From NCBI GenBank assembly GCA_947588825.1, contig CANPZU010000006.1, positions 1 to 64,000 of the forward strand: a stretch of 64,000 nt of DNA. The letters run 5' to 3'. The stretch is from an uncultured Clostridia bacterium (GTDB taxonomy: Bacteria > Bacillota > Clostridia > Oscillospirales > CAG-272). Shown here piece by piece: positions 3,875 to 64,000 of the stretch. Each line of letters opens with the position of its first letter. The first letter of the stretch is position 1. The position numbers and the translations under genes were made by a program. The notes under the pieces are model-generated. The model had not been told where the DNA came from and made no database searches. It saw only the letters and a list, made by a program, of their open reading frames with translations.

Positions 3875-4388
3875 GTTTGCCTTTTCAATCGTTTTGTTCC
3901 ATTACCGATATTTGTCCACGACGCCCTCGATAAACGGGAACGCAACCACCGGCCATGCTCTTGGCCTCATGGGAATCTCACCCCTCCGAGGATCTCTCCG
4001 AGGCGCCCTCCTTTGTTGCGACGGCTCACGGTCGTCGGAGCGGACACCGCTTGCTCGTTTCCGCCTGACGGCGAAAAGCTCGCTTGCTTTGTCGCTCCTC
4101 CTCTCCCCAAAAAGTCTTCCGACTTTTCGGGGACCCCTAAACGGCCGCTTCAACGCTCGACTTTAGGACTGGACGCAAGTATCTTTAATGCCTCTGCCTG
4201 TCATCGCCTTCGTTACGGATCGCCCGTACCGTCAGAGTCTTAAAGGCATCAGACGCGGTTTATATTTGACCGTCTGTGCGATTGCTCTTGTGGCTTGCCG
4301 GTTTTGCCGACAGCAGAGGGAAAGTAATGGTTGCGCTGTACTATTCGGTTGTCAAAGATCGCCCCGCCGCCATGCAGCTTCGGCGTCG

Positions 4389-47193: not shown

Positions 47194-50100
47194 TTATACC
47201 GCTACGGACCGTATTCCGGCGGAACTGTCGTCTTTTTTGATCAAGACGGGGGATTCGTTCCAATCCATGCCGATAGCGTTCAGTCTGTTGATTTGATTCC
47301 CGTTTGCGCCGGAAGTTTTTAACTTGCTTTTTTCTTCCCGCTGTTTTTTTATCCATGCGCCGAGAGCAAAATCACCGAGACGGTAATCTTCCGGAACGTC
47401 AAGATCTCCGTGGTCTGCAAAATAGGCCTTTGCCGCGGCAAATCCTTCCTCCCATTTCCGTTCCATCGGGAACAGCCAGTCCATGCCGATCTTGTCCAGC
47501 TTTTGTTTGTATTCGTCCGAAAGCTCGCCTTTACGGTGTTTTTCACGCTGCGCATACACCCACGAACCGAGCCGAAAACCGTTTTTTGCCTTGTATATGC
47601 CCGAAACATGCAGATTTCCGTTCATACGGTAATAGTCGGCGGCTAACTGATATGCTGTATTCCAGTCATTGTCGTATTTGCTCCATACCATCCCGATTTT
47701 CTCAAGGCGCTCCGTCTGTTCGACGGTGAGATTATGGTGCTTTGTCGGATGATTATGATTGTTGCGCTGATTTAAGATCCAACTTCCAAGCGTATATCCG
47801 TCCGCGCATATGTATTTGTACGGGACAAGCAGATCGCCGTTCAGCTTCCGATATTCTTCGGCGTGTGCGAATCCGACCTCCCATGTGTCGGCAATCTCAA
47901 ACACCATACCGATGAGATCCAGTTTTTTGATTTGCTCATCGGTCAGTTTCCCTTCCCGATAATACCTGCGCTGAACAGTCATCCATAAGGCGAGGGTTTT
48001 TCCGTCATTTCCGTCGGAGAGAACCGTATCTTTCGGAACGTCAATATTTCCATGCTCGTCAAAATACGTTTTCAGCGCCGCATAGCGCCGATCCCAAATG
48101 GCTTCGTTTTTTGTTTTCCACTCGATCCCGATGGCTTCTAAACGCCGAATTTGTTCTTCCGTCAGCTTCTGCTTGCGATTTCCGTAATACATCTGCCGTT
48201 GGTCGCTCAACCATTTACTGAGATCTATGCCTTCCGTGTTAAACCTTGCCGGCACCCGCAAATGCCCATGCTCTTTGAAATACGCTTCCGCAAGAGAAAA
48301 GCGGTATTCCCACGGATCGACCCGTTCCCATTGCATGCCGATCGCATTCAATCGGTCATAACACTCGCGCGGCAGTTTGCCGACGTTCTGTTTTTCCCAC
48401 TGATGATAAACCCATTTCCCCAACGCATAGCCGGATTCCGTTTTATACAGCCCGGATATATTCAAATCGCCGTGCTTTTCATAATACGATTTTGCGGCGG
48501 CATATCCGGTTTCCCACTGCAATTCATTTTTGTTGCCCCAAACCATACCGAGTTCGTCCAACGCGGCGATCTGGTTCTCCGTTAAAGTGCAGCATCCTCG
48601 TTTACGTCTGGATCGCTGATTGTTCATCCATGCACCGAGGCGCACACCGTTGGGGGCGACGTATGCCGCAGGCACATTCAAGTTTCCGTGTTCCCGGTGG
48701 TACTCCATGGCGGTGGAGAAGTTGCGTTCCCAGAGATAATCGGGCACAGTCCAGACCATGCCGATGGCGTCTAATTTTGCAATCCGCTCCTTCGTGAGAT
48801 AGGCGTTTCGAATCCCGCTTTTGCGGTCAGTCCGCAGATTCGCGATCCACATGCCCAAGCCGGGCATCGTTGCGGGCACAAGCAGATCTCCGTTTTTTTC
48901 GTAATACTTTTTTGCCTCGGCGTAGTTTTTCTCCCACGCCACGTCGCGCACACTTTCCCATCTCATACCGAGCGCGTCCAGCTTTGCGATCCTGTCTTTA
49001 CCCAAGATCCCGTTGCTCGTCCCGTTCCGAATTTTGCGCTGTGTGCTAAGCCAGATCCCCAGCGAGTAGCCGTCCTCCGTTTTATAGTGTTGCGGAACCT
49101 CCAGATTGCCGTGCCGGTCGTAATATTCTTTCGCATAGGCATACATGGTATCCCATGAAGCAGTCAGTGTGTCGTTGAGTTTCTCGAACAGCTCGCGGCA
49201 GTCGCGGAGCTCGTCGATAACCTGAAATTGCTCGTTTACCACAAAGGACGACTCGCCCCAAGAGCGGTAGTAGGTCATAGCGATCTGCATTTCTTCCTGT
49301 ACGGAATCAATGCTGTACAGGTTTTCGATGTTCATCACAATGTCGAAGATGACCGGCTCTTTCGACTTACTTGCCGACAGCGCGCGACCGATCTGCTGTT
49401 TGTATATGATCGGCGAAATCGTCGGACGAAGCAAGATGACCCCGCTGACGTTCTCAACGTGAATTCCCTCGTTGAGCGCGTCGATGCAATAAAGCAGGCG
49501 GAGATGGGAGCTGTCGCTGTCGGATTTGAAATCGGCGAAAGCCTTCGACGCACCGGGGTCGTCGGCGTAAACAGAATAGACGTGCGGATGTTTGTCCACC
49601 CGTGCGAACCATTCGCCGGTTTTCTCCATCATCTCGTTCATATGTTCCTTGTTGGCACAGAAGACGATGTATTTGCCCGTGCGGTCGGTCATGTGCTTGT
49701 CGAAGATCACGTCCAGCCCGTCCGCTTTTTCAAGAGCACGACGCAGGGCTTCGAGGTATTTCTCGGCGGCGTCGCGGATAGCGCGGTTTTTGGCGGTTCT
49801 GACCCGGCGCTCATATTTTTCGAGGTCTTTCTGATAAGCGAAAACCGACAGTACATACTTCGGTGGGTTCAAAATTCCGCGAACAATTGCCTCGCCGAGC
49901 GTCATCTCGCTTGCGACGTTGCCGTCGAACAGTTCCTCCGACATATCCCGCTGATTGTCCAGATACCGGATCGCCGTCGCCGTAAGACCAAGGATCGGTA
50001 CGTCGGGGAACAGCTTCAAAAATCGCTGTACGCCCAACTGCCATTGGGAAGCGCCTGCTCTGTGATATTCGTCGCACACACAGAGTGCGGGCCAGATTTC

Positions 50101-50388
50101 CGCGATTTCGTCCTCGCTCATGTTCATGAGTTTGGCGTAAGTGTAGAATCTGATGTTTCGCGGTTCGTCCCCACCCGCCGCTTTGAGATTTTCAATCTGA
50201 GTCTTAAAGATATACTCCGAGGGCGACAGCCATAAAACCGTCTTATCCAGATTATCCTCACACAGCTTAAAGCCGATGAAGGACTTACCCGTTCCGGTGG
50301 GGTGGACAATCGCCGCCTTTCCGGTTTCACGAAGCATGGAAACGGCGGAGTCATACGCTATTCGGTTGTGTTCGTACAGCTCGATCAT
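47194..50388 (-). CDS. SF2 helicase with nine helicase-associated (HA) repeats
   Basis: Walker A HPTGTGKSFIGF, motif II CDEYH, QQIGRALSAS; nine ~66-aa repeats of type W..xYAxAKxYYxxHGDLxVPxxYxxxxGxxLGxWxxxQR...LxxIGMxW. Confidence 0.9.
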   Translation of the reverse strand: MIELYEHNRIAYDSAVSMLRETGKAAIVHPTGTGKSFIGFKLCEDNLDKTVLWLSPSEYIFKTQIENLKAAGGDEPRNIRFYTYAKLMNMSEDEIAEIWPALCVCDEYHRAGASQWQLGVQRFLKLFPDVPILGLTATAIRYLDNQRDMSEELFDGNVASEMTLGEAIVRGILNPPKYVLSVFAYQKDLEKYERRVRTAKNRAIRDAAEKYLEALRRALEKADGLDVIFDKHMTDRTGKYIVFCANKEHMNEMMEKTGEWFARVDKHPHVYSVYADDPGASKAFADFKSDSDSSHLRLLYCIDALNEGIHVENVSGVILLRPTISPIIYKQQIGRALSASKSKEPVIFDIVMNIENLYSIDSVQEEMQIAMTYYRSWGESSFVVNEQFQVIDELRDCRELFEKLNDTLTASWDTMYAYAKEYYDRHGNLEVPQHYKTEDGYSLGIWLSTQRKIRNGTSNGILGKDRIAKLDALGMRWESVRDVAWEKNYAEAKKYYEKNGDLLVPATMPGLGMWIANLRTDRKSGIRNAYLTKERIAKLDAIGMVWTVPDYLWERNFSTAMEYHREHGNLNVPAAYVAPNGVRLGAWMNNQRSRRKRGCCTLTENQIAALDELGMVWGNKNELQWETGYAAAKSYYEKHGDLNISGLYKTESGYALGKWVYHQWEKQNVGKLPRECYDRLNAIGMQWERVDPWEYRFSLAEAYFKEHGHLRVPARFNTEGIDLSKWLSDQRQMYYGNRKQKLTEEQIRRLEAIGIEWKTKNEAIWDRRYAALKTYFDEHGNIDVPKDTVLSDGNDGKTLALWMTVQRRYYREGKLTDEQIKKLDLIGMVFEIADTWEVGFAHAEEYRKLNGDLLVPYKYICADGYTLGSWILNQRNNHNHPTKHHNLTVEQTERLEKIGMVWSKYDNDWNTAYQLAADYYRMNGNLHVSGIYKAKNGFRLGSWVYAQREKHRKGELSDEYKQKLDKIGMDWLFPMERKWEEGFAAAKAYFADHGDLDVPEDYRLGDFALGAWIKKQREEKSKLKTSGANGNQINRLNAIGMDWNESPVLIKKDDSSAGIRSVAV

Positions 50389-50407
50389 CTCGCCGTCTCC
50401 TTTCTTT

Positions 50408-52927
50408 TTATATGGCAATGACGCCGATTTCCGACAAAAGTTTCTTCCTTTCGGCGCTCATCTTGCCATGCTTTGCGACTTGTTTTTGGTTGGACAGCCA
50501 AACGTACAGGTTTTCTCCCTGCGAATCGGTATACCTGACAGGCAACCGGCAGTCGCCGTGTTCATCGAAATATTCCTTTAACTCCGCATATTTTCTGTTC
50601 CATCTGTTTTCACTGTTCAAATTCTGCGTGAACCCGATGGAACGGAGTTTTTCGATTTGTTCCTCCGTGAGGGTTTTCCCCTCGCGGTTGCCGATCAGAA
50701 TCTGTCGCTGTTCGTTCAGCCATTTATTCAGCCAAACGCCGTCGGCGACGTAATCGGGCGGGACGTCAAGGTTTCCGTGCTCCCGGAAATATGTCCGTGC
50801 CATTTCAAAGCAGTCGTACCAGTCGTTTTTGCGGGATTTGTTCCACACCATTCCGATGGCGTTGAGCCTTTTGATCTCCGCCTCGCCTAGCTTGCCTTTG
50901 ACATATTTCTCTCTGCATTTGCTCAAGAATACGCCGAGCTTGTAGCCATCCTCCGTGACATAGAAGAGCGGAGCGTCCGCCGCGCCGTGTGCGGCGGAGT
51001 ACACCTTTGCGTAGGAGTAGCCTTTCTCGAAAGCGAGGTTTTTCTTGGATTCCCAACGCATACCGAGTTCGTCCATCTGTGCAATCTGCTCGTCGTCCAG
51101 CTTGCCGCGAATATTCGGATCGTGCCGATATTTCTTCCGTAGATCATTCAGCCAATTGCCCAGCTTCACGCCGTCTTGAATACACCCTTTCGGTACTTCA
51201 AGGTCGCCGTGTTCACTAAAGTACGCTTTTGCCGCGTCGTAGTTGCGCTGCCACAGATAATCGTTCGTGTCCCAGATCATGCCGAGATCGACGAGCATCT
51301 GCTCGCGTTCCGGGGTGAAGTAATTGCTCTTAATTCCATAACGGCGATAGTTGCGGACAGAAATGATCCACTTGCCGAGCGTCAATCCGTCTTTCGTCAC
51401 ATAATCGCCGGGGACGTTCAGGTCGCCGTGTTCGGCATGATATGCCTTGCAAGCGGCGTAGTGGCGTTCCCATGACACGTCGTTGACGCTCTCCCACCGC
51501 ATTCCCAGCGCGTCCAGCTTCGCAATTCTGTCCTCGCCGAGGACACCGATTGCTTTTCCTGCGCGGACCATCCTCTGTGTCCGTAGCCACGCGCCGAGCG
51601 TATAGCCCTCCGGCGTTTTGTAATCAACGGGTACATAGAGGTTGCCGTACTCTTTGTGATATGCCTTTGCACAAGCGTACATGGTGTCCCACGAGTTGGT
51701 CAGCGTTTCCTCCAGTTGATTAAACAGCGTCCGGCAGTCGCGCACCTCGTCGATCACCTTGAACCGGTCGGCTACGATTTGCTCCCCGTCGCCGAAGTAG
51801 TTGTAGTAGGTGATGGCGGCACGCATTTCCTCTTCGATGGAGCCGATGCTGTAGAGGTTTTCAAAATTGTTCACGATGTCGAAAATGACCGGCGTATTGG
51901 ATTTCCCGGACGAAAGCGCGCGACCGATCTGCTGCTTGTAGACGATGGGCGAAACCGTGGGACGGAACAAAATCACGCCGTCCACGTCGTCCACGTGAAT
52001 GCCTTCATTCAGCGCGTCGATGCAGAAGAGGAGTTTCAAATGCGACGTGTCGGTGTCGGCTTTGAACTCGTCAAACGACTTCAAAGTCTCCCGGTCAAGG
52101 GAGTAGAGCGAATACACGTGCGGGGCTTTGTCCACCTTGCCGAACCACTCGGAAACATGGCTCATACACTCGCGCATCGCGTCGATATTAGACGTAAACA
52201 CAAGATATTTGCCCGTGCGTTTCTCCATGTGCTTGTCAAAGATAACGTCGAGTCCGTCGGCCTTTTCAAGAGCGCGACGCAGGGCCTCGTAATACTTTTC
52301 AGCCGCATCGCGGACAGCCTTGTTGCGGTGCGAATCGATTTTCTTCTTCAGTCTGTCAAGCTCATTCTGGTAGACAAAGGCCGCCATGACATACTTCGGC
52401 GCGGGAAGAATCCCCCGCACAATGGCCTCGCCGAGGGTCATCTCACTTGCGACGTTGCCGTCGAACAGCTCCTCCGCCATATCCCGCTGACCGTCGAGAT
52501 AGCGGATCGCCGTCGCGGACAGTCCGAGGACGGGGACATTCGGGAACAGTCTCAAGAATTCAAGAATATTCTTTTGCCAAATTCGCGCGCCTACGCGATG
52601 GAATTCATCGGCTACCAGCCCGTCAAATTGCATCGACGCAATTTCATCGTCGGTATACAAAGAGAATTTTTTGTAGGTGGCAAAGGTAATATTATCAAGT
52701 TGCCCTCCGCCGGCCGCCTTGTAGTTTTCGATTTGCGTCTTGAAGATATATTCGCTCGGCGACAGCCAAAGGATTTTCTTGTCCGGGTTGTCCTCGCAGT
52801 ATTTGAATCCGATGAACGACTTCCCGGTGCCGGTGGGATGGACAATTGCCGCTTTCCCGGTTTCCGCAAGCATAGAAAGAGCCGACTCGTAGGCGACTCT
52901 GTTGTGTTCGTACAGCATGATTGACAT
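50408..52927 (-). CDS. SF2 helicase with six HA repeats (paralog)
   Basis: 839 aa; Walker A HPTGTGKSFIGF, ADEFH, QQIGRALSSG; six ~66-aa HA repeats. Confidence 0.9.
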   Translation of the reverse strand: MSIMLYEHNRVAYESALSMLAETGKAAIVHPTGTGKSFIGFKYCEDNPDKKILWLSPSEYIFKTQIENYKAAGGGQLDNITFATYKKFSLYTDDEIASMQFDGLVADEFHRVGARIWQKNILEFLRLFPNVPVLGLSATAIRYLDGQRDMAEELFDGNVASEMTLGEAIVRGILPAPKYVMAAFVYQNELDRLKKKIDSHRNKAVRDAAEKYYEALRRALEKADGLDVIFDKHMEKRTGKYLVFTSNIDAMRECMSHVSEWFGKVDKAPHVYSLYSLDRETLKSFDEFKADTDTSHLKLLFCIDALNEGIHVDDVDGVILFRPTVSPIVYKQQIGRALSSGKSNTPVIFDIVNNFENLYSIGSIEEEMRAAITYYNYFGDGEQIVADRFKVIDEVRDCRTLFNQLEETLTNSWDTMYACAKAYHKEYGNLYVPVDYKTPEGYTLGAWLRTQRMVRAGKAIGVLGEDRIAKLDALGMRWESVNDVSWERHYAACKAYHAEHGDLNVPGDYVTKDGLTLGKWIISVRNYRRYGIKSNYFTPEREQMLVDLGMIWDTNDYLWQRNYDAAKAYFSEHGDLEVPKGCIQDGVKLGNWLNDLRKKYRHDPNIRGKLDDEQIAQMDELGMRWESKKNLAFEKGYSYAKVYSAAHGAADAPLFYVTEDGYKLGVFLSKCREKYVKGKLGEAEIKRLNAIGMVWNKSRKNDWYDCFEMARTYFREHGNLDVPPDYVADGVWLNKWLNEQRQILIGNREGKTLTEEQIEKLRSIGFTQNLNSENRWNRKYAELKEYFDEHGDCRLPVRYTDSQGENLYVWLSNQKQVAKHGKMSAERKKLLSEIGVIAI

Positions 52928-52945
52928 CCTGCGCGTCGGCTCCCT

Positions 52946-53113
52946 TCAGTTTTTTAATTTTTTATACGACAAGAAATCCAGCGTTGCTTCCGGATTGGCG
53001 AAGACAATATATTCAATGATTTCGGAAATACTACAAGGTATCCGAAACGCGACATTGCCACGAGAAGCGGCAGAATCAAAAAATCTTGCGTAGAACAACT
53101 TATTCTTAACCAC
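52946..53113 (-). CDS. Possible 55-aa leader ORF whose first 10 codons are the 30-bp inverted repeat
   Basis: VVKNKLFYARFFDSAASRGNVAFRIPCSISEIIEYIVFANPEATLDFLSYKKLKN, ending just before the helicase start; no clear RBS seen. Confidence 0.4.
   Translation of the reverse strand: MVKNKLFYARFFDSAASRGNVAFRIPCSISEIIEYIVFANPEATLDFLSYKKLKN
53084..53113 (+). repeat. Inverted repeat left (IR-L), 30 bp
   Basis: TCTTGCGTAGAACAACTTATTCTTAACCAC, perfect reverse complement of 54677-54706. Confidence 0.95.
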
Positions 53114-53155
53114 AAAGGCGGAAAAGTCCCGAATCTACGGGATTTCTCCGCCTTT
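53114..53155. terminator. Stem-loop abutting IR-L
   Basis: AAAGGCGGA...CCCG...CGGG...TCCGCCTTT. Confidence 0.6.
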
Positions 53156-53183
53156 TTGACCATAATTTTGACCACTATAAAAT

Positions 53184-54347
53184 TCAGGCGTGAAGCAGTT
53201 CAAGCTGCTCCCGCTTGCGTTCCATGGAGGAATGAACGTAGGTATTCAGCGTAATGCCGACGTTGGCATGACCCAAAATTTCGCTCAGCGATTTCACGTC
53301 CATCCCGGACTCCACGCATCGGGTAGCGAAGGTATGTCGGAGTGCATGGTAGTTGATCTGTCGGATGCCGCTTTCCTCGAGCAGATGGTGAAACCTGTAC
53401 TCATAAGTCCGCGGACTCATGAAATTTTCTTTTCCCGACGTGAGATACCCCGTCGGATTTTCCCGCCGCAGTTCGATCAGATACGGGATCAACGCGGAAG
53501 CGATGGGAATATCTCTTACGGACGAGGGCGTTTTCGGAACGTCGATGATCAGTTGGGTTGCCGATGGTCTTTCGGAATCCTCTCTTCTCACACGGGCGAC
53601 GGTGTGGCGAATGTGGATGACTTTACCGTTAAGATCAACGTCCTCCCAAGACAGGGCGCAAACTTCTCCGATTCGAAGGCCGGCGTACAAAGAAATCAGG
53701 ATGCCTGTTGAAATCGAATCGGTGTGTACGGAAAGGTATTCTTCCAAGCAATCCTGTTCTTCTCTGCTGAGGATAGAAAGATCTTTCTTTTCAAGATGAG
53801 GTTTGTATATATCGGTTTTCAGCGGTTTGCAGTATTCCTCGTTTGCCGCGAACTGCATGGCGGACTGAATAATCTGCGCCATCGCTCGGATATAGGCCGG
53901 AGATAGCGTGTTTTTTCCACCGCGCTTTGCGGTTCTCATTTTTCGTGAAAGGAAGGAATTGATCGTTACCGACGTGATTGCGGTTACGGGAAGCGCTCCA
54001 AGCTCCGGTTCTATGTGACGTTCGATGACCGTTCGATACCTATGTTCCGTCGCGCCTTTCAGATGTAGACACTTGTTATCGAGCCAGAGACGTAAAATCT
54101 CCGAAAAAGATTTTTCCTTGCCATGCTTTTCGGGCGGCAAAGAGTTGGCGATTGCATCAAGTAGTTTGTTTTTGGCTTCCATGTAATTTTTCCCGTAGAC
54201 CGATGCGTAACGGATAAAACCGTTCTCATAGAAGCCGGTGCGATACCGCCCCTCCCAACGTCCGTCTTTTCTTTTGTGAATGTTTAAGCCTTTTTTTGAC
54301 ATAATCAGTTCTCCCTTCGGAATATATTGGTTCTTGAAATAGTCCAT
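53184..54347 (-). CDS. Tyrosine recombinase/integrase
   Basis: 387 aa; SLYAGLRIGEVCALSWEDVD, YHALRHTFATRCVESGMDVKSLSEILGHANVGITLNTYVHSSMERKR. Confidence 0.95.
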   Translation of the reverse strand: MDYFKNQYIPKGELIMSKKGLNIHKRKDGRWEGRYRTGFYENGFIRYASVYGKNYMEAKNKLLDAIANSLPPEKHGKEKSFSEILRLWLDNKCLHLKGATEHRYRTVIERHIEPELGALPVTAITSVTINSFLSRKMRTAKRGGKNTLSPAYIRAMAQIIQSAMQFAANEEYCKPLKTDIYKPHLEKKDLSILSREEQDCLEEYLSVHTDSISTGILISLYAGLRIGEVCALSWEDVDLNGKVIHIRHTVARVRREDSERPSATQLIIDVPKTPSSVRDIPIASALIPYLIELRRENPTGYLTSGKENFMSPRTYEYRFHHLLEESGIRQINYHALRHTFATRCVESGMDVKSLSEILGHANVGITLNTYVHSSMERKREQLELLHA

Positions 54348-54613
54348 TATTTATGATAGAATACTTTTTGCATGAAGTGATGAATTTTGCATCGTCGCCA
54401 AGCGCGTGCGAATGAAATTGCCGACATAGCCGCCATTTAATCAAGAAGAGTCAATTTCTTGAAATGGCGAAGCTATGTTTTTTGACCACTATTTGACCAC
54501 TATAAATGGGAAATAAACGAAAAAAAGCCGCACAAATTCATTTCATGAATGATTTGCTTGCGAGAAATTTAGCAAATTTCCATGAACTTTGGCGGCGATG
54601 TTCGTTGTAGTAC

Positions 54614-54642
54614 TTGACAAATCAATATTTTTGTAGTATAAT
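54614..54642 (+). promoter_or_regulatory. Perfect-consensus sigma-70 promoter reading outward through IR-R
   Basis: TTGACA - 17 nt - TATAAT. Confidence 0.8.
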
Positions 54643-54676
54643 GAGCTATCAGCGCGGTCTACGCGGCTGTTTAAAC

Positions 54677-54706
54677 GTGGTTAAGAATAAGTTGTTCTAC
54701 GCAAGA
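54677..54706 (-). repeat. Inverted repeat right (IR-R), 30 bp
   Basis: + strand GTGGTTAAGAATAAGTTGTTCTACGCAAGA, perfect inverse of IR-L. Confidence 0.95.
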
Positions 54707-54721
54707 AATGCGTATATTTAG

Positions 54722-54762
54722 ACACAGACGGAACTTGATTTTCTGTCTGTGTTTTTCTTTTT
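54722..54762 (+). terminator. Intrinsic terminator just beyond IR-R
   Basis: ACACAGAC ... GTCTGTGT followed by TTTTCTTTTTC. Confidence 0.75.
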
Positions 54763-54799: not shown

Positions 54800-54878
54800 G
54801 GTTCACGGTGAACCACCCCTCGGTTCACCGTTTAGGCAGACTTCCCCCTCGGTTCACCGTTTAGGCAGACTTCCCCCT
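54800..54878. repeat. Palindrome plus two 29-bp iteron-like direct repeats
   Basis: GGTTCAC-G-GTGAACC at 54800-54814; CGGTTCACCGTTTAGGCAGACTTCCCCCT at 54821-54849 and 54850-54878. Confidence 0.8.
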
Positions 54879-55170: not shown

Positions 55171-56979
55171 CTATGGCGTCCGCAGTTTGTTGTGCGGTCT
55201 TGGCGGTTCGTTCTGTTCGCTCATGACGGTCCCGCCCGACGAGCTTTCCGTTTTCGGCTTTTTCTTGGGCTTCGGTTTTTCCTCCGGTATATCGAGCGGT
55301 TCGGGAACGCCGCCGCAGATGGCGGTTTCAATGATCTCCTTGCCGGTGTATTCTACCTTGCGGGAGCCTTTGTCGGCAACGGTATAGGGCTTTTTGTCAA
55401 AGTCGATGCCCCATTTGGTGAACAGCTTCAGCTTGGAGATAAACGGGTGCGTCCCGGTTTTCATGACAATGAACGACCCCTTCTTCATGGATTTCAGCTC
55501 GTCCGCCGTCATCAGCGGCCGCTCGGTCATTTGCAGACTTTGGGACGGGTCGTTCTTGCTTCGACTGACCGAGCCGGTCATCACCGTGCGGGAGCCAAGC
55601 GCCTTGGAAATGACTTCGGCGGTTTCAGAGGTCGGCGCAAAGCCGCCCGCAATGGTCACTTGGCAGTTGTCTTGGATGATGGCCGCGCCCTCCGCGCCGT
55701 AGTTTTTCTGTAATTGCTGGTAGCTTTGGATAATAGACACGATGCTCATTTTTCTTGACCGGCTGGCAGAGTACATAACCTCCGCAGAACTGATGGGCGG
55801 CAGAGAGCCGAACTCGTCGCAGTAAAACATGACGCGGTTTTCCAGCGCACCGCCGTTTTCATCGGCCACGGTCAGTATTTCACGATACATCTGTTGGATC
55901 AGTAGCGACACCATGAAGAAGGTGTTGGGATTTTCCTCCGGCAATACCACGAACACCGCACACTTCTGCGAACAGAACTTCTCCGCGTCGATAGCGGTAT
56001 CGAAACAGAGGATTTGTTCCAGTTCGCTATCGAGGAAAGCATTCAGACGGGACATCGCCGTGGACATGACCGATTGCATGGCTTGGTCAGATGTGTTGAG
56101 AGCCGCTCCCGCAAACCACAGTGCCTTGTGTTCGGGCGGCAGGCGTTCCATGAGAAGCTGGAACTGATTTTTTCCTTTGATATCGGAGGGAGCCAACAGG
56201 TCTTGGATCAGCTTGAACACCGACACGATGTGCCGCCGGGCGGGCGGAGCATACTCGGCAATCAGCAGGATTACCGCCGTGAGCAGTCCTTCGGCGGCGT
56301 CATAGAAGAAAGCGTTCTGTCCGTAGGCCGAGGCGTCGCCGTCGTTGTAGATCAGCGTCTTGGCGATGATCTTGGCGTATTTCTCTGCCTTTGCCCGGTA
56401 TGCGAGGTTGTCGGGATGCTCCTTGCTCAAATCCATATACTTGTTGACAAGGTGCAGAAGGTTGTTGCCGTCCGACTTGGTGGGATTCCGTAAATCAATC
56501 ACGGCAACGGAATAGCCGTATTGCTCTTTTGCAATATTTCCGTAATTGCGGTAGAGGTCGCCCTTGGTATCGGTCGTGAGAAAGGACATTCCTGCCGCAC
56601 AAGCATATTCAAGGTTCGGATACAGCCAGAAGGCGGTCTTACCGCAGCCCGCCGCACCGATCATCATGGTGTGGACGTCTCCGGTATCCACCAGCGCCAC
56701 GGTCTGTCCGTGCTTATTCTGACAGCCGACGATCACGCCTTGGGGCAGATGGAGGTCGTGACCTTTAGCGGCTCTCCATGTTTTCGGCTCGAACGGCACA
56801 AACTTGTATATGCGGTGCAGCTCTCCCTTGGACGAAAACCTTGCCGTTCCGTGCTGACCGTCGCCGACTGTCTTGCTTTTGATTCCGTTGAGGTTATATA
56901 GGTGCGAGGCGAGCGTCAGTCCGCCGATGACGGCGAACATTGTCGCCGCAATGATAATTAAGAGAATCGGATTTCCCAT
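55171..56979 (-). CDS. VirD4/TraG-like type IV coupling protein
   Basis: MIGAAGCGKTAFWLYPNLEYACAAGMSFLTTDTKGDLYRN, MFYCDEFGSLPPISSAEVMYSASRSRKMSIVSIIQSYQQLQKNYG. Confidence 0.92.
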   Translation of the reverse strand: MGNPILLIIIAATMFAVIGGLTLASHLYNLNGIKSKTVGDGQHGTARFSSKGELHRIYKFVPFEPKTWRAAKGHDLHLPQGVIVGCQNKHGQTVALVDTGDVHTMMIGAAGCGKTAFWLYPNLEYACAAGMSFLTTDTKGDLYRNYGNIAKEQYGYSVAVIDLRNPTKSDGNNLLHLVNKYMDLSKEHPDNLAYRAKAEKYAKIIAKTLIYNDGDASAYGQNAFFYDAAEGLLTAVILLIAEYAPPARRHIVSVFKLIQDLLAPSDIKGKNQFQLLMERLPPEHKALWFAGAALNTSDQAMQSVMSTAMSRLNAFLDSELEQILCFDTAIDAEKFCSQKCAVFVVLPEENPNTFFMVSLLIQQMYREILTVADENGGALENRVMFYCDEFGSLPPISSAEVMYSASRSRKMSIVSIIQSYQQLQKNYGAEGAAIIQDNCQVTIAGGFAPTSETAEVISKALGSRTVMTGSVSRSKNDPSQSLQMTERPLMTADELKSMKKGSFIVMKTGTHPFISKLKLFTKWGIDFDKKPYTVADKGSRKVEYTGKEIIETAICGGVPEPLDIPEEKPKPKKKPKTESSSGGTVMSEQNEPPRPHNKLRTP

Positions 56980-57884
56980 GCTTCTTCCTCCGTTTCTGTT
57001 GGTTCTTCGGGCGGACGGCACAAATCCTCGTTCCAGTCCTTGCCCTGTGGGATTTCAATTTCGTATTTGTATCCGCCGGTGAACAGCTTCTCGGCAATTC
57101 TTCGGGCGGCGGCTTGCCCCGGTTCGTCGCTGTCGAGGCAGAGGTGAACTTCGTTTAGATGTGGGTGCTGTTTGAGAGTATAAAAAAGCGCCCGATCCGC
57201 GACCGAGCAGAGGGCAACATAGGAATGCTCTTTCCAATTTTCCTTGTGCATGGAGATATACGAAAGCATATCTATCGGGGCTTCAAAAACATAGAGTCGA
57301 TTGCTTTTCCCGATGTGGTGGAAGCTGTACTCCGGTTCGCTGCCGGCCTCGTTGCCCTTGTAAGTGCTTTCCGTACCGGAGCCGCGCTTGGAGATATGCC
57401 GTATCTTTCCCGTTTCATCTGTTCCCACGAATACGACATTGTGGTACTTGGCATCCTCGTAGATCAGCCCGGCATGGGCAAAATGGTTCAGCACATCCCG
57501 GTCAATGCCTCGGTGTTTGAGCAGATACGCATACACCCGGCGCATATTGCCGTTCCGCTCCGGCTGGACGAGCGGTTTTTGCTCCTTGACCACAGGCGGC
57601 GAGGCGGCCAAGATGCCGCTGCTTTCCCCCAGCAGATAGTCCATTGCCTCCTGATAGGTCTTGTTGTAAAAACGCCGCACAAAGTCGATGGCGTCGCCAC
57701 CCTCCCGCTCGTATTGGTGATACCACAGGTTGCCTCGGATCGTCACTTTCTGCCCGCCGTCCCGCCATTCGTACTCCTTGCCGGAGCGTTTGAGGGTTTC
57801 CCCTTGGGAGCGGAGCAGCTCGGCAATGTCGGTCTGTCTGGCTCGCTCCTTTTGTTCGTCTGTATAACGGATATAGGTTGACAT
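56958..57884 (-). CDS. Toprim/DUF3991-like mobile-element protein
   Basis: MSTYIRYTDEQKERARQTDIAELLRSQGETLKRSGKEYEWRDGG...GGDAIDFVRRFYNKTYQEAMDYLLG, HLCLDSDEPGQAAARRIAEKL. Confidence 0.85.
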   Translation of the reverse strand: MSTYIRYTDEQKERARQTDIAELLRSQGETLKRSGKEYEWRDGGQKVTIRGNLWYHQYEREGGDAIDFVRRFYNKTYQEAMDYLLGESSGILAASPPVVKEQKPLVQPERNGNMRRVYAYLLKHRGIDRDVLNHFAHAGLIYEDAKYHNVVFVGTDETGKIRHISKRGSGTESTYKGNEAGSEPEYSFHHIGKSNRLYVFEAPIDMLSYISMHKENWKEHSYVALCSVADRALFYTLKQHPHLNEVHLCLDSDEPGQAAARRIAEKLFTGGYKYEIEIPQGKDWNEDLCRPPEEPTETEEEAWEIRFS

Positions 57885-57901
57885 GATTTCTCCTTTCTCG
57901 G

Positions 57902-60100
57902 TCATCCCATCTTCTGACCGTGCAGTTCCATTTTCTCCGCAATCTTCTGCCGCAGCTTCTTCTCGATATGCCTGCGGCCGTTTTCCTCTCGCCGCAAATC
58001 GTCCCGGAAGATCTGCGAGAGCCGGGCAATCAGCCGCAGAGCAGTAAGGCCGATCGGCGCTCTGTTTGCTCCGGGGCGGTAGTGTTCCAACACATAACGG
58101 GCGTAGGGATTGCCCTGATCGGCGGAGGCCGTCAGCAGTTGAACGGCCAGGTTGTAATCCCGCTCCACTTCCTGACCGTAAAGATACATTTTTCCAAGCT
58201 GATATTGGGCGTACTGATTTTCTTTCTCCGCCGCTTGCCACAGCCAATAAAGCGCCTGCGGCACGTTTTTCGGAATGCCATCGCCGGAGAGGTAAAGCCT
58301 CCCCAGCAGATACATTGCCTGATCGTTTCTTTTCTCCGCCGCCGAGGTGAGCAGACGCTCCGCTTCGGCGGTATCTTTTTCGGTCAGTTCACCCCGCATG
58401 AGGAGCTTGCCGAGCAGATACGCCGCCCACACATTGCCACGGTCGGCGGACTCCCGTAAAAGAAAAAGCGCCTTGCCGGTATCGGGATGCTCCGCAAGAC
58501 CGTCGAGGTGCATTTTTGCGAGTGAATATTTTGCGTAGGAATTTCCTTGCCGGGACGCTTTTTCAAATAATTCCTCGGCTTTGGAAAAGTCGGCATATAC
58601 ATCCTCGCCCTTGAGATAGGTTTTGCCCAATAGGTACTGTGCATATTGATTGTTCTTCGCTTCCGCCTGCCACAGCCAATGCAGGGCTGTGGCAACGTCC
58701 TTTTCGATTTCCTCTCCACGCAAAAATAATTTTCCGAGTCGGTATGCGGCGATATCCAACCCTTGATTTGCCGCCAATGTCAGCAGGTGGACGGCTTCTG
58801 CGGGATCGTACTGCTCCGTATCCCGGTCGAGGTAATCTTTGGCTTTGAAATACTGTTTCCACGCATTGGGGCGGTTGTCCTGCCGGTCGCTTCTTTTGTG
58901 GAGAGGCCTCGGCTCGGTTTCCGCATCGGAAATCTCCGGCGCCGGTTCGTCATTTTCTTCCGGCGATTCCTCGAAGGTCACGTCGTCGGAAAGCAGATGC
59001 ATCGCTTCCCGGATCACGGCGTTCCGCACCGATTTGAACTCCTTGTTCTGTGAGAGTGGTATCCGCTTCGGCATGGTATCGGTGTAGGTACGGATGATTT
59101 CCTCCCGTTGCTCGTACCACAGGTCATATAGATCGGCGATGCGGCTGTCCTTCGCCAGCTCGTCCACGATCCCGTTCACAAGATTTTTGGCTCTTTGCGG
59201 AAGGTAGCCGTATACCTTTTTACCCTTCGTGCGGGAGAGCGCATCGGCCAGTTCCTTCAGCATCAACTCTACGGTTTCGTTGTCGTAACTGCCGGCGCTG
59301 ATCCGCTCCACGATCTCCGAGAGCATATCCCGGCTCTCTTTTTTCAATGCATTCCGATGCTCGGTCTGCCGGTCGTAGACTTGCAGAAGGTCTTGCTTGA
59401 AGATTTCACGGGCGAAGGAGGATTTCAGCCGGTGCAAACCCTGCTCGGTCATATACGGTTTTTTGCCGGTGGAGTAGGCCACGATATGCACATGAGGATG
59501 ATGGGATTCGTTGTGGAAAGCGGCGTACCACTTGAGGTCCGTCAGCGGGATCTTCATCGCCTCTGCCATTTCTTTTGTGTGGCTGCGGAGCAGATCCCGC
59601 CATGCGGAGCCATGGTCATAGCCAAGTCTTGCCGCATCTTCCCGGCGAAGGGAGAGGACTTCGGTGAACACCACGCCCGGATGTTCCGCCACTTCCTTCG
59701 CCACAGCGGAGAGATGGATCGGCACGTCGCTGTCTGTAAACAGTCCGTGCGCGCCGGCCTTTTCCACATGAGGACGCATGGCAATGTAGCCCACATAGTT
59801 TTCTCGCTTGCCGATCAGGTCAACCTTGTCCTCGATGGCGCGAGAGATGAACTCGGACGCCGCGCCTTTGGTTTTCGTTTTTGCATAGTCTGTATACTCG
59901 AAGCTGTCTCTTGTGTCGGGGAAGTCCGAGAGGATTTGACCGATCAACTTCTCCTGCGCTTTGGTTGCGGGGAGCGACTTCCACGAGTCGTCCAGCTTCT
60001 CCACGCCATCCCGTGTGGCGATATACCTGACGAGGTTTTCCGAATGTTTTCCCGCTGCGTTCGCCTTGAGGTAGCGCCACTTGAAGATTATTTTTGCCAT
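57902..60100 (-). CDS. Relaxase (MobP3-like) with C-terminal Sel1-like repeats
   Basis: 732 aa; WYAAFHNESHHPHVHIVAYSTG HxxxxHxHxH; repeats of type AxxxLGKLxLxGEExxxDxxxAxxxLxxAxxxxNxYAxYxLGKxYL. Confidence 0.88.
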   Translation of the reverse strand: MAKIIFKWRYLKANAAGKHSENLVRYIATRDGVEKLDDSWKSLPATKAQEKLIGQILSDFPDTRDSFEYTDYAKTKTKGAASEFISRAIEDKVDLIGKRENYVGYIAMRPHVEKAGAHGLFTDSDVPIHLSAVAKEVAEHPGVVFTEVLSLRREDAARLGYDHGSAWRDLLRSHTKEMAEAMKIPLTDLKWYAAFHNESHHPHVHIVAYSTGKKPYMTEQGLHRLKSSFAREIFKQDLLQVYDRQTEHRNALKKESRDMLSEIVERISAGSYDNETVELMLKELADALSRTKGKKVYGYLPQRAKNLVNGIVDELAKDSRIADLYDLWYEQREEIIRTYTDTMPKRIPLSQNKEFKSVRNAVIREAMHLLSDDVTFEESPEENDEPAPEISDAETEPRPLHKRSDRQDNRPNAWKQYFKAKDYLDRDTEQYDPAEAVHLLTLAANQGLDIAAYRLGKLFLRGEEIEKDVATALHWLWQAEAKNNQYAQYLLGKTYLKGEDVYADFSKAEELFEKASRQGNSYAKYSLAKMHLDGLAEHPDTGKALFLLRESADRGNVWAAYLLGKLLMRGELTEKDTAEAERLLTSAAEKRNDQAMYLLGRLYLSGDGIPKNVPQALYWLWQAAEKENQYAQYQLGKMYLYGQEVERDYNLAVQLLTASADQGNPYARYVLEHYRPGANRAPIGLTALRLIARLSQIFRDDLRREENGRRHIEKKLRQKIAEKMELHGQKMG

Positions 60101-60103
60101 CGG

Positions 60104-60508
60104 TTAAGAGCCTTTCTGAAATTTCACGGCGTCCTCCATGCGCACCGATCCGTGCAGGCGCTTGACTTCTTCTACACACATCCCCCGCAGACGGGAGAGG
60201 GTGTCGGCGTCGATCTCGCTGTTCGCCGCCGTGACGTGGAGGTTCATCGACAGCTCCACCGCCAACTTGAAGAGCAGATTTGCCATTCGGTTTTCGAGAC
60301 TGTCCAGCGTTCCTTTCATCGTGGAGACGATGACGTTCGGAAAATATCCTCTGTAATCGTTCGCCGTCAGGTAGCCTGCATAGAATAAAATCGCCTTTTC
60401 AATAAACTCCGCGCGGCTTTTGCAGTCGTCGTCCCGGTACAACTTCTCCACCTTTTTGAGGGTGTCCGGCTGTACCCACAGCGCAAATTTCTGTTTGTTT
60501 CCGTCCAC
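60104..60508 (-). CDS. MobC-like accessory/RHH protein
   Basis: 134 aa; KFALWVQPDTLKKVEKLYRDDDCKSRAEFIEKAILFYAGYLTA. Confidence 0.7.
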   Translation of the reverse strand: MDGNKQKFALWVQPDTLKKVEKLYRDDDCKSRAEFIEKAILFYAGYLTANDYRGYFPNVIVSTMKGTLDSLENRMANLLFKLAVELSMNLHVTAANSEIDADTLSRLRGMCVEEVKRLHGSVRMEDAVKFQKGS

Positions 60509-60796
60509 TTTTTCTCTCCCTTCCGCCGTGTATCACGGCAATTTTCGTGCCAAAATTTTCGGCTGACAACGCCCCGAAAACCCGCATGGTATAAGGCTTT
60601 TTCAGCCCTCGGAGGTTTGTGCTAAAATATATGCGAAACCTCCTTTTTCGGGGCGCAGCGCCTATGAAAAGCCTTGTGCTGTCGGCACACTTCGTACCTC
60701 TGACCCCAACGGGCGAAAATCGGGTGAATTCTGACCCCTATACGGAAAGATGCGAAAACCCCTTGTGCGGTCGGCGTTGCCGTCCGCTGTGAGCCT

Positions 60797-60884
60797 GGGG
60801 CTGTAAAAAAACAGGCCAAAAAAATCCGAGGTTCACTAAAGGAAGTGAATCTCGGATGTTTTTGGCCTGTTTTTTTACAGCCCC
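60797..60884. repeat. Long near-perfect hairpin (41-nt arms)
   Basis: GGGGCTGTAAAAAAACAGGCCAAAAAAATCCGAGGTTCACT / AGTGAATCTCGGATGTTTTTGGCCTGTTTTTTTACAGCCCC, 39 of 41 positions pair. Confidence 0.9.
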
Positions 60885-61242
60885 TGGGTGCGGGCTTCTG
60901 CCCGCAAAATCCGCATCGGGAGGGTCGGCGGCATAAGCCGACGACCAGTCGAATGCGATGCTCGCACTCTCCCCAAAGGGAGAGTACAAAGCCCCTCCGT
61001 CCGTCTTTTTCCGTATTCGCCGCACACGGGGCGAAACAGGGCGGGAATGCTGCGCGGTGGGTGTTTTCCCGTGCTTGCCCGAAAAAGCCGACACGGGGCG
61101 TTCTGTGGGCGACAGGGGCGTTACCGTTCGTCCGCTCCGTTTTCTGTGCTGATTTGGGGACTGTCACCGACAGAGCAAAGAAGAATGCAACAATGCAGAA
61201 CAGTCCCTATCTGGAAAAGAACACACTGCAATGTTTCCTTCT

Positions 61243-62211
61243 TCATCGGGGGAGAGACCATACCCAACTTCGTCCCGCTTTTCGAGTAACGACGCCGGGG
61301 ATATTTTTCTTCGCTTCGTTTACGGTGCGGCGGGAGATACCCTTCTGCTGCGCTATGCGGAAAATTTCTTCGCAGGGGATTTCCGTTCCGCTCTCCAACA
61401 TCGCGCAGATCAGTTCCTCTGCCGCCGAAGTTTTTGTTTCCGATACCGATCCGCACAGCAGCTCTGCGGAGGTGACATCCCCATAACCGTCGAGCCACAA
61501 AAAGCCCGCGTCCGTTCCGAGAGAAAACGCAAGGGATTTTCCCTCCGGCGCGAGTGAGGATTTGTCGTGTACCACAATGCGGGTGTGCGGTTCTTTCCTG
61601 AGCCGTCCGACCAACAGAACGCTCCGCGCCGCCGCACGAAAATCTATCGAGCCGAGTCCGCGATAGGAACTGTTGGCGCCCTGCGCTTTGTTCAGATGTC
61701 CAACGAGGACGATGGCACACTTTGTCCGCTCCGCAACGGCGGAGACCTTTTTCAGTACCGAGCGAATTTCATTGGCACGGTTCATATCCACCTTATCTCC
61801 GAGATAGCCCTGCACCGGATCGAGGATCATCAGTCCCGCGCCGGTCTGAACGATGGCGGACTCGATGCGTTCGTCCAGCAGAGAGAGGCACCGTCCGCTT
61901 TCATCGATGCAGAAGATTTTGCTTTCGTCTGCGCCGGCTTCGGCAAGCCGGGGCTTGACGGTATCTCCGAGTCCGTCCTCCGCTGTCTGATACAGTACCG
62001 GAAACGGTTCATGCGTCTTTGCTCCGGGGAGCGGCGCTCCTGCGGAACAGGCAGCCGCAAGGCGAAGAGCCAGCGTCGTTTTTCCTTCGCCGGGGTCGCC
62101 TTGGATCATGGTGATTTTTCCGAAAGGCAGATACGGATACCACAGCCAATCCACCGGCTGCAGCTCCACCTCCGACATTCGGATCAGTTTTACTTTCTTT
62201 TCTTCCGTCAT
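61243..62211 (-). CDS. RepA-like AAA/RecA-fold ATPase
   Basis: MTEEKKVKLIRMSEVELQPVDWLWYPYLPFGKITMIQGDPGEGKTTLALRLAAACSAG, GAGLMILDPVQGYLG, CAIVLVGHLNKAQGANSSYRGLGSIDF. Confidence 0.88.
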   Translation of the reverse strand: MTEEKKVKLIRMSEVELQPVDWLWYPYLPFGKITMIQGDPGEGKTTLALRLAAACSAGAPLPGAKTHEPFPVLYQTAEDGLGDTVKPRLAEAGADESKIFCIDESGRCLSLLDERIESAIVQTGAGLMILDPVQGYLGDKVDMNRANEIRSVLKKVSAVAERTKCAIVLVGHLNKAQGANSSYRGLGSIDFRAAARSVLLVGRLRKEPHTRIVVHDKSSLAPEGKSLAFSLGTDAGFLWLDGYGDVTSAELLCGSVSETKTSAAEELICAMLESGTEIPCEEIFRIAQQKGISRRTVNEAKKNIPGVVTRKAGRSWVWSLPR

Positions 62212-62541
62212 GGATACCTTCCTTCCATTGGTTTTGATTTTGATGCAAGCACAGTCAATCTGTTCATCCTCTCCTTTGCATGATTCGGCGCAGCATCGGT
62301 TTGGAAACGGAATCCGATTGCGCCTATGTAAGCCGATGAATGTTCTTCCATATGTATCGGAATGAAATTTGCGCTTTGATAGCATCCGATTTTGCTTTTC
62401 ACTTTGTATTCCACAATTTTTCCGGATTTCACAACCGGCAGAAATAGAAAATGCCCTCGCTTTCCTTTCGGAAAATGAGAGCATAAAAAAGCGCCGGCAG
62501 TTCACCATGCGGTGTGTCGGCGGTTTCGTAAGTATTTTATT

Positions 62542-63321
62542 TTAGTTGGTTCGCACCCCACGCACAAAAAGGCGGTGGGTATTGGAGCCGCTCGGCGTAC
62601 AGGTGACCAGCGTACAGATTTCCTTGCCTTCCTCGACCTTATCGTCGGCGTAATCCTCAAAGCTGTTGGGATCAACCACACGAACATTGTCCACCTCGAA
62701 GGTTACGGTGTCTTTTAAGACCGTGACGGAGAAGGTATCTCCCTCTTTCAGCTTATCCAAATGCTCGAAGGTAACGGCAGTCGCCATATTTCGATGGGAC
62801 AGAAGAACATAGTGTCCATCCGTGCCGCCGATGGGCAGCGAAGCGTATTCCAAATGACCACAGCCTCGGCTTAGGTTTTTGTCGGAGGAATAGTGGTAGA
62901 TGGGCAACCGGACGTCAATGGAGGGAATTTCGATATATCCGATCACCTCCGTCCCCGGCACGCTCAATTCGGTCGGATAATCCTGCTCGAACTGATCGAA
63001 CAGCTCTCCCCAAATATACGGATGGGCAAGAGCATATTTTTTGTTGTATTCAATGGCGTTTGTTTCAATCTCCGCCAATTCCTCGTCGGTCAGACGGTTT
63101 ACGGCCGCTATGTATTCCTCGATGGCGTCCTCATGCTGCCGGTTGGTGATCCAAGTCCCTACCGGACGGGAGAGGAGGGCGGCAAGTCCGGCAAGAGCGC
63201 AAAGGATCAGAGCGGCGTCGATCAGCTTGTCCCACAGCGTTCGCTTTTTCTTTCCTGCCGGTTTGTTCTCCTGCGCGGATGGAACAGACTCTGTTTCCGG
63301 CTTTTTCTTTGTAGCTTGCAT
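62542..63321 (-). CDS. Sortase
   Basis: 259 aa; N-terminal TM, GCGHLEYASLPIGGTDGHYVLLSHRN, CTLVTCTPSGSNTHRLFVRGVR. Confidence 0.9.
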   Translation of the reverse strand: MQATKKKPETESVPSAQENKPAGKKKRTLWDKLIDAALILCALAGLAALLSRPVGTWITNRQHEDAIEEYIAAVNRLTDEELAEIETNAIEYNKKYALAHPYIWGELFDQFEQDYPTELSVPGTEVIGYIEIPSIDVRLPIYHYSSDKNLSRGCGHLEYASLPIGGTDGHYVLLSHRNMATAVTFEHLDKLKEGDTFSVTVLKDTVTFEVDNVRVVDPNSFEDYADDKVEEGKEICTLVTCTPSGSNTHRLFVRGVRTN

Positions 63322-63423
63322 TTTTCATTCCTCATCTGTCGGGTAAAAGGTAGGTGCGGGCGGGCTTTTGGCCGGCGCCCGCACCCGCGGTTTATCGGTT
63401 TTCTTTTTTTGGCTGCTCCGCTG

Positions 63424-64000
63424 TTACTTTACACGGACACGGCGCTTTTTGCAGAAGCACATAAAGACGATCCCGGAAATGATCAAAGCTCCGCCAAGCA
63501 GATAGAACAGTCCGACGCCGCCGCTACCGCTGAACGGCAGGAACGGGGGCTTGGCGTTTACAAAGAGCCAGTTCGCCTGCGGATGTTCTTCTGTGATCTC
63601 ACCGTTTGTGCTGAAGTCTGTCGGATGGATGAAGTTGTCGGGATTGGTGATGTCAGGAGTCTCAATCACATTGACCACATATTCGAGATTGTATCCATCT
63701 CGGCCGGTTTCCTTCACGGTGTACTTTGTATCCATCGGAATGCCGCTTATGACGAAGCGTTCTCCGTGCATCAGCTTGATTTCGGCGGTAAGAACGGTTT
63801 TACCATCCACTACGGTCGAATTCCAAGAAACAGATTTCGTAATATCTTCGCTTGTTTCGCCTCCGGCTTCCGTTTTTTTGTACTTCGTCACGGTAAGAGT
63901 TTCGGCATTCAATGTTTTCTCCCCGCCCGCGGTCAGCGTTACGGTAAAGGTGAAGGTCTTATCCACTTCCCACTTGTCGTCATCGTGGATTTGCTTTTCT
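63424..64000 (-). CDS. Sortase-anchored Cna-B-like surface/pilin protein, N-terminus beyond window
   Basis: FTFTVTLTAGGEKTLNAETLTV..., C-terminal LPFSGSGGVGLFYLLGGALIISGIVFMCFCKKRRVRVK (LPxxG, TM, positive tail); frame remains open upstream of 63966. Confidence 0.85.
   Translation of the reverse strand, partial: EKQIHDDDKWEVDKTFTFTVTLTAGGEKTLNAETLTVTKYKKTEAGGETSEDITKSVSWNSTVVDGKTVLTAEIKLMHGERFVISGIPMDTKYTVKETGRDGYNLEYVVNVIETPDITNPDNFIHPTDFSTNGEITEEHPQANWLFVNAKPPFLPFSGSGGVGLFYLLGGALIISGIVFMCFCKKRRVRVK

Follow-up and report, generated by a model that had tools for sequence, protein, structure and literature searches.

A predicted invertible promoter cassette with a resident Tn916/Tn1549-type integrase upstream of HA-repeat helicases and a polysaccharide cluster in an uncultured Clostridia bacterium

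Introduction

In the capsular polysaccharide loci of Bacteroides, promoter inversion (Mpi) switches long polysaccharide operons at whose heads UpxY/UpxZ are encoded. In the Hin system of Salmonella, the recombinase gene and an outward promoter lie together within an invertible segment (the H segment) of approximately 1 kb. A 1-kb segment is also mentioned for Hin in a published account (PMC12529663). In C. difficile, the RecV switches Cdi1, Cdi4 and Cdi6 each invert a short upstream segment, which gives rise to ON and OFF cells (PMC5903667). Among gut Clostridia, inverton group 139 is statistically tied to invertase group 35, a tyrosine recombinase/integrase family encoded nearby (PMC11892184).

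The locus described here lies in a stretch of 64,000 nucleotides from an uncultured Clostridia bacterium (hereafter, the window). It shares with Hin the layout of a resident recombinase and an outward promoter, although Hin is a serine recombinase with other sites and chemistry. The Bacteroides Mpi loci belong to an unrelated lineage and their recombinase is encoded outside the segment, whereas the operon in the window is headed by HA-repeat helicases. RecV serves several short segments that lie apart from one another, of which only Cdi7 adjoins a recombinase (PMC5903667), whereas in the window a Tn1549-type integrase is encoded inside the segment. The members of inverton group 139 are, like the window segment, Clostridia segments bracketed by inverted repeats (IRs) near a tyrosine recombinase/integrase family; the report gives proximity within 5 kb, does not present a resident-recombinase cassette as a general rule, and leaves helicases unmentioned (PMC11892184). 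The Tn916/Tn1549 integrases, which are nearest to the window recombinase in solved structure and domain layout, integrate and excise elements, whereas the sites in the window are inverted and bracket just the recombinase gene and a promoter. Tyrosine-recombinase invertible promoters are already known; this cassette is distinguished by its resident Tn916/Tn1549-type integrase, and in the papers searched the link between HA helicases and phase-variable polysaccharide operons is undescribed. We propose that the segment at 53084–54706 is very probably an invertible promoter cassette with its own recombinase, which would switch the helicases and probably also a polysaccharide cluster of about 40 kb.

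Results

Anatomy of the cassette

The segment is 1,623 bp long and is bounded by two 30-bp sequences, IR-L and IR-R, that are reverse complements of each other without a mismatch (Table 1). The first-pass annotation of this DNA had reported a perfect 30-bp inverted repeat around a tyrosine recombinase gene, and its coordinates were exact. With up to three mismatches allowed, the repeat pattern occurs at just two places in the window (chance expectation, 0.00), and a 25-nt part of it has two copies, one per strand, in the entire 2.67-Mb, 95-contig assembly, in which the pair is unique. An exact search of the viral_contigs collection with the 30-mer gave no match, and an Rfam scan returned nothing at the switch locus.

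Between the recombinase start codon and IR-R lies a promoter-like sequence that matches the consensus at 12 of 12 positions and is the top-scoring site in the region; its end is 34 bp from IR-R, and it points outward, in agreement with the earlier description. As in other invertons, perfect inverted repeats thus surround a promoter. The terminator that had been placed directly right of IR-R (at 54722–54762) corresponds to a predicted hairpin at 54720–54754, and the minus-strand helicase operon said to begin at 52927 does so at an open reading frame start. When the inversion is computed, the end of the −10 box moves to 53148, the very position foreseen for a promoter facing the helicases, and comes to lie 220 nt upstream of the helicase ATG. 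Repeated elements had also been noted near both ends (53166–53182 and 54481–54507), and we find two repeats per end. All promoters and terminators, here and below, are consensus matches or predictions. The strong hairpin that separates the recombinase stop codon from IR-L would, in the OFF orientation, probably keep recombinase transcription out of the helicase gene. The leader contains a short open frame that could encode a leader peptide or be a gene remnant; it is seemingly recognisable in another genome (G080:C27, L195).

Table 1. Positions of the predicted switch elements and of the genes to their left in the window
Feature	Position	Strand	Remarks
Polysaccharide biosynthesis genes	12028–46584	−	Same strand as and downstream of the helicases; probably in a common transcript
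Helicase 2	47194–50418	−	SF2, 9 HA repeats; second switched gene (predicted)
Helicase 1	50408–52927	−	SF2 (ResIII-type), 6 HA repeats; first switched gene (predicted)
Leader between IR-L and helicase	52928–53083	−	Short open frame SAASRGNVAFRIPCSISEIIEY...LSYKKLKN*
IR-L	53084–53113	−	Putative recombination site: outer arm CTTGCGTAGAA, 7-nt spacer, inner arm TTCTTAAC
Strong hairpin between recombinase stop and IR-L	53111–53158	−	GGCGGAGAAATCCCG-TAGATT-CGGGACTTTTCCGCC
Two TTTGACC-type repeats, helicase-side end, inside cassette	53153–53181		Putative arm-type sites (function inferred)
Tyrosine recombinase, Tn916/Tn1549-type integrase, 387 aa	53184–54347	−	Domain profiles, residue alignment, structure match
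Two TTTGACCAC repeats, promoter-side end, inside cassette	54479–54506		Putative arm-type sites (function inferred)
Outward promoter TTGACA-17-TATAAT	54614–54642	+	Consensus match; faces IR-R (OFF)
IR-R	54677–54706	+	Copy identical to IR-L, in inverted orientation
Terminator-like hairpin outside IR-R	54720–54754	+	Consensus prediction; downstream of promoter in OFF

The recombinase consists of an N-terminal region, a SAM-like core-binding domain and a phage-integrase catalytic domain. It is full-length, and the catalytic residues R225, H334, R337, H360 and Y370, which are conserved in an alignment of eight relatives, are all kept, so that the protein appears intact by sequence. Among solved structures in the PDB, the top match was the Int protein 6EMY/6EMZ, which we take to be Int of Tn1549. 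The domain layout and this match argue that the enzyme is, as judged from its sequence, a Tn916/Tn1549-type integrase and not a short RecV/Xer-like invertase: it has the sequence and domain similarity, the SAM-like and catalytic domains, and the candidate arm-binding N-terminal region of the former (one relative has a weak AP2-type match at its N-terminus), whereas RecV/Xer-type recombinases are short and encoded outside the segment, and this one has 387 aa, an extra N-terminal region and a gene inside the segment. The parallel first drawn with RecV holds for the invertible-promoter geometry but not for the class of recombinase. A mobile element of the Tn916/Tn1549 type is expected to have direct att repeats, whereas in this incomplete assembly the site is present twice and inverted.

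The helicases and the polysaccharide cluster

Behind the two helicase genes, the minus strand encodes a DegT aminotransferase, an initiating sugar transferase, glycosyltransferases, PIG-L, TupA, a UDP-sugar dehydrogenase, an MBOAT protein and a UDP-galactopyranose mutase. Between helicase 2 and the aminotransferase gene, this strand has no promoter-like site and one weak terminator-like site. With the glycan genes on the same strand and no promoter-like site intervening, what is switched is most likely a polysaccharide operon of about 40 kb headed by the HA helicases. The first-pass annotation had taken the helicase pair to be phase variable and OFF in the assembled orientation; the OFF geometry stands, but the unit appears to be wider, with the helicases at the head of the whole cluster. 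At other HA-helicase loci with readable downstream sequence, nearly all helicase genes likewise lead into DegT, initiating transferase or other polysaccharide genes; the exception, G503, has a helicase that is 37% identical and stands without an IR.

One alternative is that the cassette does invert but that its output is the helicases as a defence (restriction-like) module, with the glycan genes transcribed from promoters of their own. Phase-variable defence is common, and the helicase motor resembles HsdR, ResIII and RadD, with weak similarity to PbeA and to type IV restriction enzymes as well. However, PADLOC matched the window helicases partially, in the motor domain only and not over the whole length of a defence model, and a domain search found no nuclease domain in them. 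The position of HA helicases at the head of glycan operons in nearly all loci, and the absence of a promoter-like site behind helicase 2, also speak against such a division of the locus. We regard this alternative as unlikely, and prefer the reading in which the helicases and the polysaccharide cluster are switched together.

The same genome has a second polysaccharide locus with two HA-repeat helicases at its head (G000:C44:1–12000, L213). Its contig starts inside the apparent recombinase-3′ end of another cassette, marked by the GGTCAAAA motif, a terminator and a 21-bp palindrome. The ends of contigs C34 and C44 were considered as two orientations of one cassette, and this was rejected, as they are different loci.

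Switches upstream of HA-repeat helicases

A helicase search of 295 genomes of the same family (18 positive) and 295 genomes of the order (9 positive) gave 27 loci, in which we looked for perfect IRs (16 bp or longer) that have an arm no more than 350–400 bp away from the helicase start. An IR-bracketed promoter lies upstream of the HA helicase at 18 of the 27 loci (14 of 20 at the family level and 4 of 7 new ones at the order level), and two further loci have imperfect IRs. As a control, 397 other open reading frame starts in the same and related loci were examined; 19 had such an IR, of which 18 adjoin the same cassettes or switches by coordinates and the remaining one precedes a recombinase gene. 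Roughly half of the 18 promoters point toward the helicase (ON) and half away from it (OFF), L203 being ambiguous, and their distance from the segment end is nearly constant.

Three kinds of switch were found at these helicases. The resident-recombinase cassette is OFF in the window, G075 and G260 and ON in G491. The second kind is a short segment with an adjoining, external tyrosine recombinase of ~290 aa, and most of its members have ACAACATAAT-type IRs (G054, G234, G228, G201, G007 and G161; by position, also G530 and G543). The third consists of short segments with no recombinase nearby, although one of them, G457, retains a recombinase-like N-terminal fragment. Two loci of the second kind are in genomes of the same genus, G201 and G007. 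Their outer flanks are 96% and 98% identical in line, whereas the 300 bp between the IRs are 57% identical in the forward and 85% in the reversed direction, so HA-helicase promoters do invert in nature, in this case with a recombinase that differs in type from the resident integrase of the window. Resident-integrase cassettes, for their part, are ON in some species and OFF in others, and it is this contrast that supports inversion for them. In G234, a 19-bp inverted repeat (L201:4624–4857) lies ~240–470 bp upstream of the gene for the external recombinase and apart from the helicase switch; it may mark another invertible segment, one that controls this recombinase.

Some loci have decayed, and this raises the possibility that the window copy is a dead or locked switch, in which the IRs and the recombinase persist, inversion has ceased and the operon is fixed OFF. 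In G080, the helicase-side IR is gone and a remnant of the recombinase is left; the recombinase of G371 is truncated, with a promoter toward the helicase; and the gene in G080:C51 is interrupted. In the window, however, the full-length recombinase with its catalytic residues, the perfect IRs and the consensus promoter show none of this decay, and we consider a locked state improbable. A switch that can still invert is the reading that we carry forward.

Cassette architecture among recombinase relatives

Relatives of the recombinase were gathered from genomes of the same family, other genomes, viral contigs, and phage and plasmid records. A single-sequence search of viral_contigs found no relative; an alignment-based search found 80 loci. 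A profile was built from eight family members; relatives with a score of 324 bits or more against it counted as closer (n=51) and the others as weaker (n=69). The two sides of each recombinase gene were inspected for the arms of a perfect inverted repeat, with shuffled flanks as the control. Perfect IRs of 18–54 bp bracket 35 of the 51 closer relatives, as compared with a maximum of 15 bp in shuffled flanks; among the 69 more distant relatives, none has an IR that reaches 16 bp. The remaining 16 close relatives are without an IR of at least 16 bp, several of them being cut by contig ends. The idea that the IR-bracketed recombinases make up a single clade found no support in a FastTree tree, which shows no clean clade and has a weak backbone. 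The clade of the window recombinase has a support of 1.0 in this tree, and its four assessable members have the IRs TCTTGCGTAGAACAACTTATTCTTAACCAC (window), CTTGCGTAGAACTGCTTATTCTA, AACCCTCATCTTGCGTAGAACGGTTGGTTCTTAACA and AAAAATACGTAGAACTGCTTGTTCTA. The arms of these sites are conserved (CGTAGAAC..TTCT), and the spacer is specific to the locus but identical between the two copies of a locus, as would be expected because tyrosine-recombinase core sites require such a layout.

In 18 of 34 IR cassettes (0.8% of shuffles), the stretch from the IR to the recombinase start contains an outward promoter that matches at 11 or more of 12 positions; the match is complete (12/12) in 10, and none of the 34 has an inward-pointing promoter of at least 11/12. 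Of 32 cassettes, 14 have a strong terminator immediately outside the promoter-side IR, as compared with 2.3% of random windows. This arrangement has the appearance of an ON/OFF design, in which the promoter end would meet either a gene or a terminator.

A different interpretation is that the cassette is an IS-like or integron-like mobile element and that the IRs are the terminal repeats of a small transposing unit that landed here. Its small size, with a recombinase as the sole gene between terminal IRs, the many different kinds of genes that similar cassettes adjoin, and the non-autonomous, recombinase-deleted derivatives (G457 and L221) would be consistent with this idea. Yet the IR pair is single in the genome, the outer edges show no visible target-site duplication, each locus has a spacer of its own despite the conserved arms, the cassettes hold a fixed position before the same gene families, and only one of the two ends has a conserved outward promoter. 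We judge a transposing unit to be very improbable. The IRs as att-site remnants of two integrations, with the recombinase as the integrase of a neighbouring conjugative element, are scarcely credible: conjugation genes do occur in the right flank (a VirD4-type coupling protein at 55171–57021 and a MobP3 relaxase at 57902–60100) and the recombinase is closest to Tn1549-type Int, but no direct copy of the site exists elsewhere in the assembly, the cassette promoter and terminators are oriented as in a switch, and the family pattern of inverted brackets beside many kinds of genes already makes this unlikely. An invertible segment accommodates these features best in our opinion.

Two further cassettes of this type are present in the same genome. 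One, with an 18-bp IR and the outward promoter TTGAAA-17-TATAAT, lies 18 kb away on the same contig beside a TetR-like gene (G000:C6:72211–73329, L002/L011), and the contig ends 74 bp beyond its IR. The other has a 32-bp IR whose core is the perfect dyad TCCTTAAA-TACAAAG-TTTAAGGA (G000:C28:31766–32806, L003); it adjoins a protein-kinase-like gene, with the contig end ~105 bp outside the IR.

Opposite orientations of homologous cassettes

Homologous cassettes of different species were found in both orientations. In G190, 140 bp separate a TetR-like gene (so called from a reading of its sequence, not from a profile match) from the cassette on the recombinase 3′ side, and in G218 the homologous gene is 146 bp away on the 5′ side. 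The flanks of the two are 69% identical over 717 positions from the IR edge, and the cassettes, in opposite orientation, are 66% identical. MT837341 and G197 likewise have the cassette in opposite orientation beside the same gene (71% over 509). Other cassettes keep a single orientation beside a conserved gene. The opposite orientations support inversion; the paired cassettes are only 65–71% identical, and therefore independent insertion in both directions is possible for those pairs. That inverted copies fit inversion, as first supposed, agrees with the IR brackets found family-wide, and the comparison of related genomes that had been suggested as a check revealed both HA-helicase promoters and homologous cassettes facing both ways.

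An orientation difference was also sought in Enterococcus raffinosus, where the cassette (26-bp IR) faces the same way in all three carrier strains, and the 5′ flanks diverge some distance outside it. The related recombinase in megaplasmids of E. raffinosus and E. gilvus (L152, L230, L231 and L232) is beside surface-protein operons, with WxL-domain proteins in E. gilvus.

Discussion

The copy in the window is known from one metagenome-assembled genome, in the OFF orientation, with one genome compared per species, and its inversion is a prediction. We envision that the Tn1549-type integrase binds both 30-bp sites, through the dyad arms on either side of the 7-nt spacer, and flips the 1,623-bp segment. 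The TTTGACCAC arm sites just inside each end would probably aid flipping, and the N-terminal region of the integrase would bind them, by analogy with the Tn916 and lambda integrases. The recombinase gene would travel with the segment, and flipping would depend on this resident recombinase. In the OFF orientation, as assembled, the strong promoter would fire through IR-R into the terminator, and the hairpin before IR-L would halt the recombinase transcript short of the helicases. In the ON orientation, the promoter would drive both HA-repeat helicases from its position 220 nt upstream and probably also the ~40-kb polysaccharide cluster behind them. These arrangements suggest that the window copy is active, that control runs in this direction and that a single transcript extends through the glycan genes.

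As to the role of the helicases, our preferred guess is that they act as a processivity or locus-choice factor for a long operon, and the main rival is a co-expressed defence factor. More broadly, we tentatively suggest, with somewhat less than even confidence, that, across this Clostridia-like order, HA-repeat helicases are dedicated to the first position in phase-variable polysaccharide operons and act as operon-specific factors (for example, in transcription processivity or locus choice, as a counterpart of Bacteroides UpxY/UpxZ), and that several promoter-inversion modules have been recruited repeatedly before them, namely those with a resident Tn1549-type integrase, those with an external Xer-like recombinase and segments with no recombinase nearby. 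In the literature searched, which mostly did not extend to subscription papers, no report links HA-domain helicases to invertible promoters or polysaccharide operons.

The locus points to widespread phase variation of surface glycans outside Bacteroidetes, and ties an uncharacterised helicase family to the control or execution of glycan switching. Where an IR cassette contains both a Tn1549-type integrase and a divergent promoter, this combination offers a signature by which such switches may be found in assemblies for which reads are lacking. The cassettes also suggest a route from an integrase to a self-contained gene switch, of which the non-autonomous and the probably locked derivatives would represent later stages.

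Several other features of the window may be mentioned. Just right of the terminator, at 54816–54873, are two identical 29-bp repeats (CCCCTCGGTTCACCGTTTAGGCAGACTTC) arranged head to tail. Beside the switch, the interval 55171–63966 encodes a CD1115-type VirD4 coupling protein, the MobP3 relaxase, an AAA_25 protein and a class C sortase, and a conjugative element may carry the polysaccharide locus and the switch as cargo. Near the opposite end of the window, the Rfam pemK RNA motif (RF02913) scores above its gathering threshold at 3967–4188, and two large serine recombinase genes are located nearby, at 709–3197.
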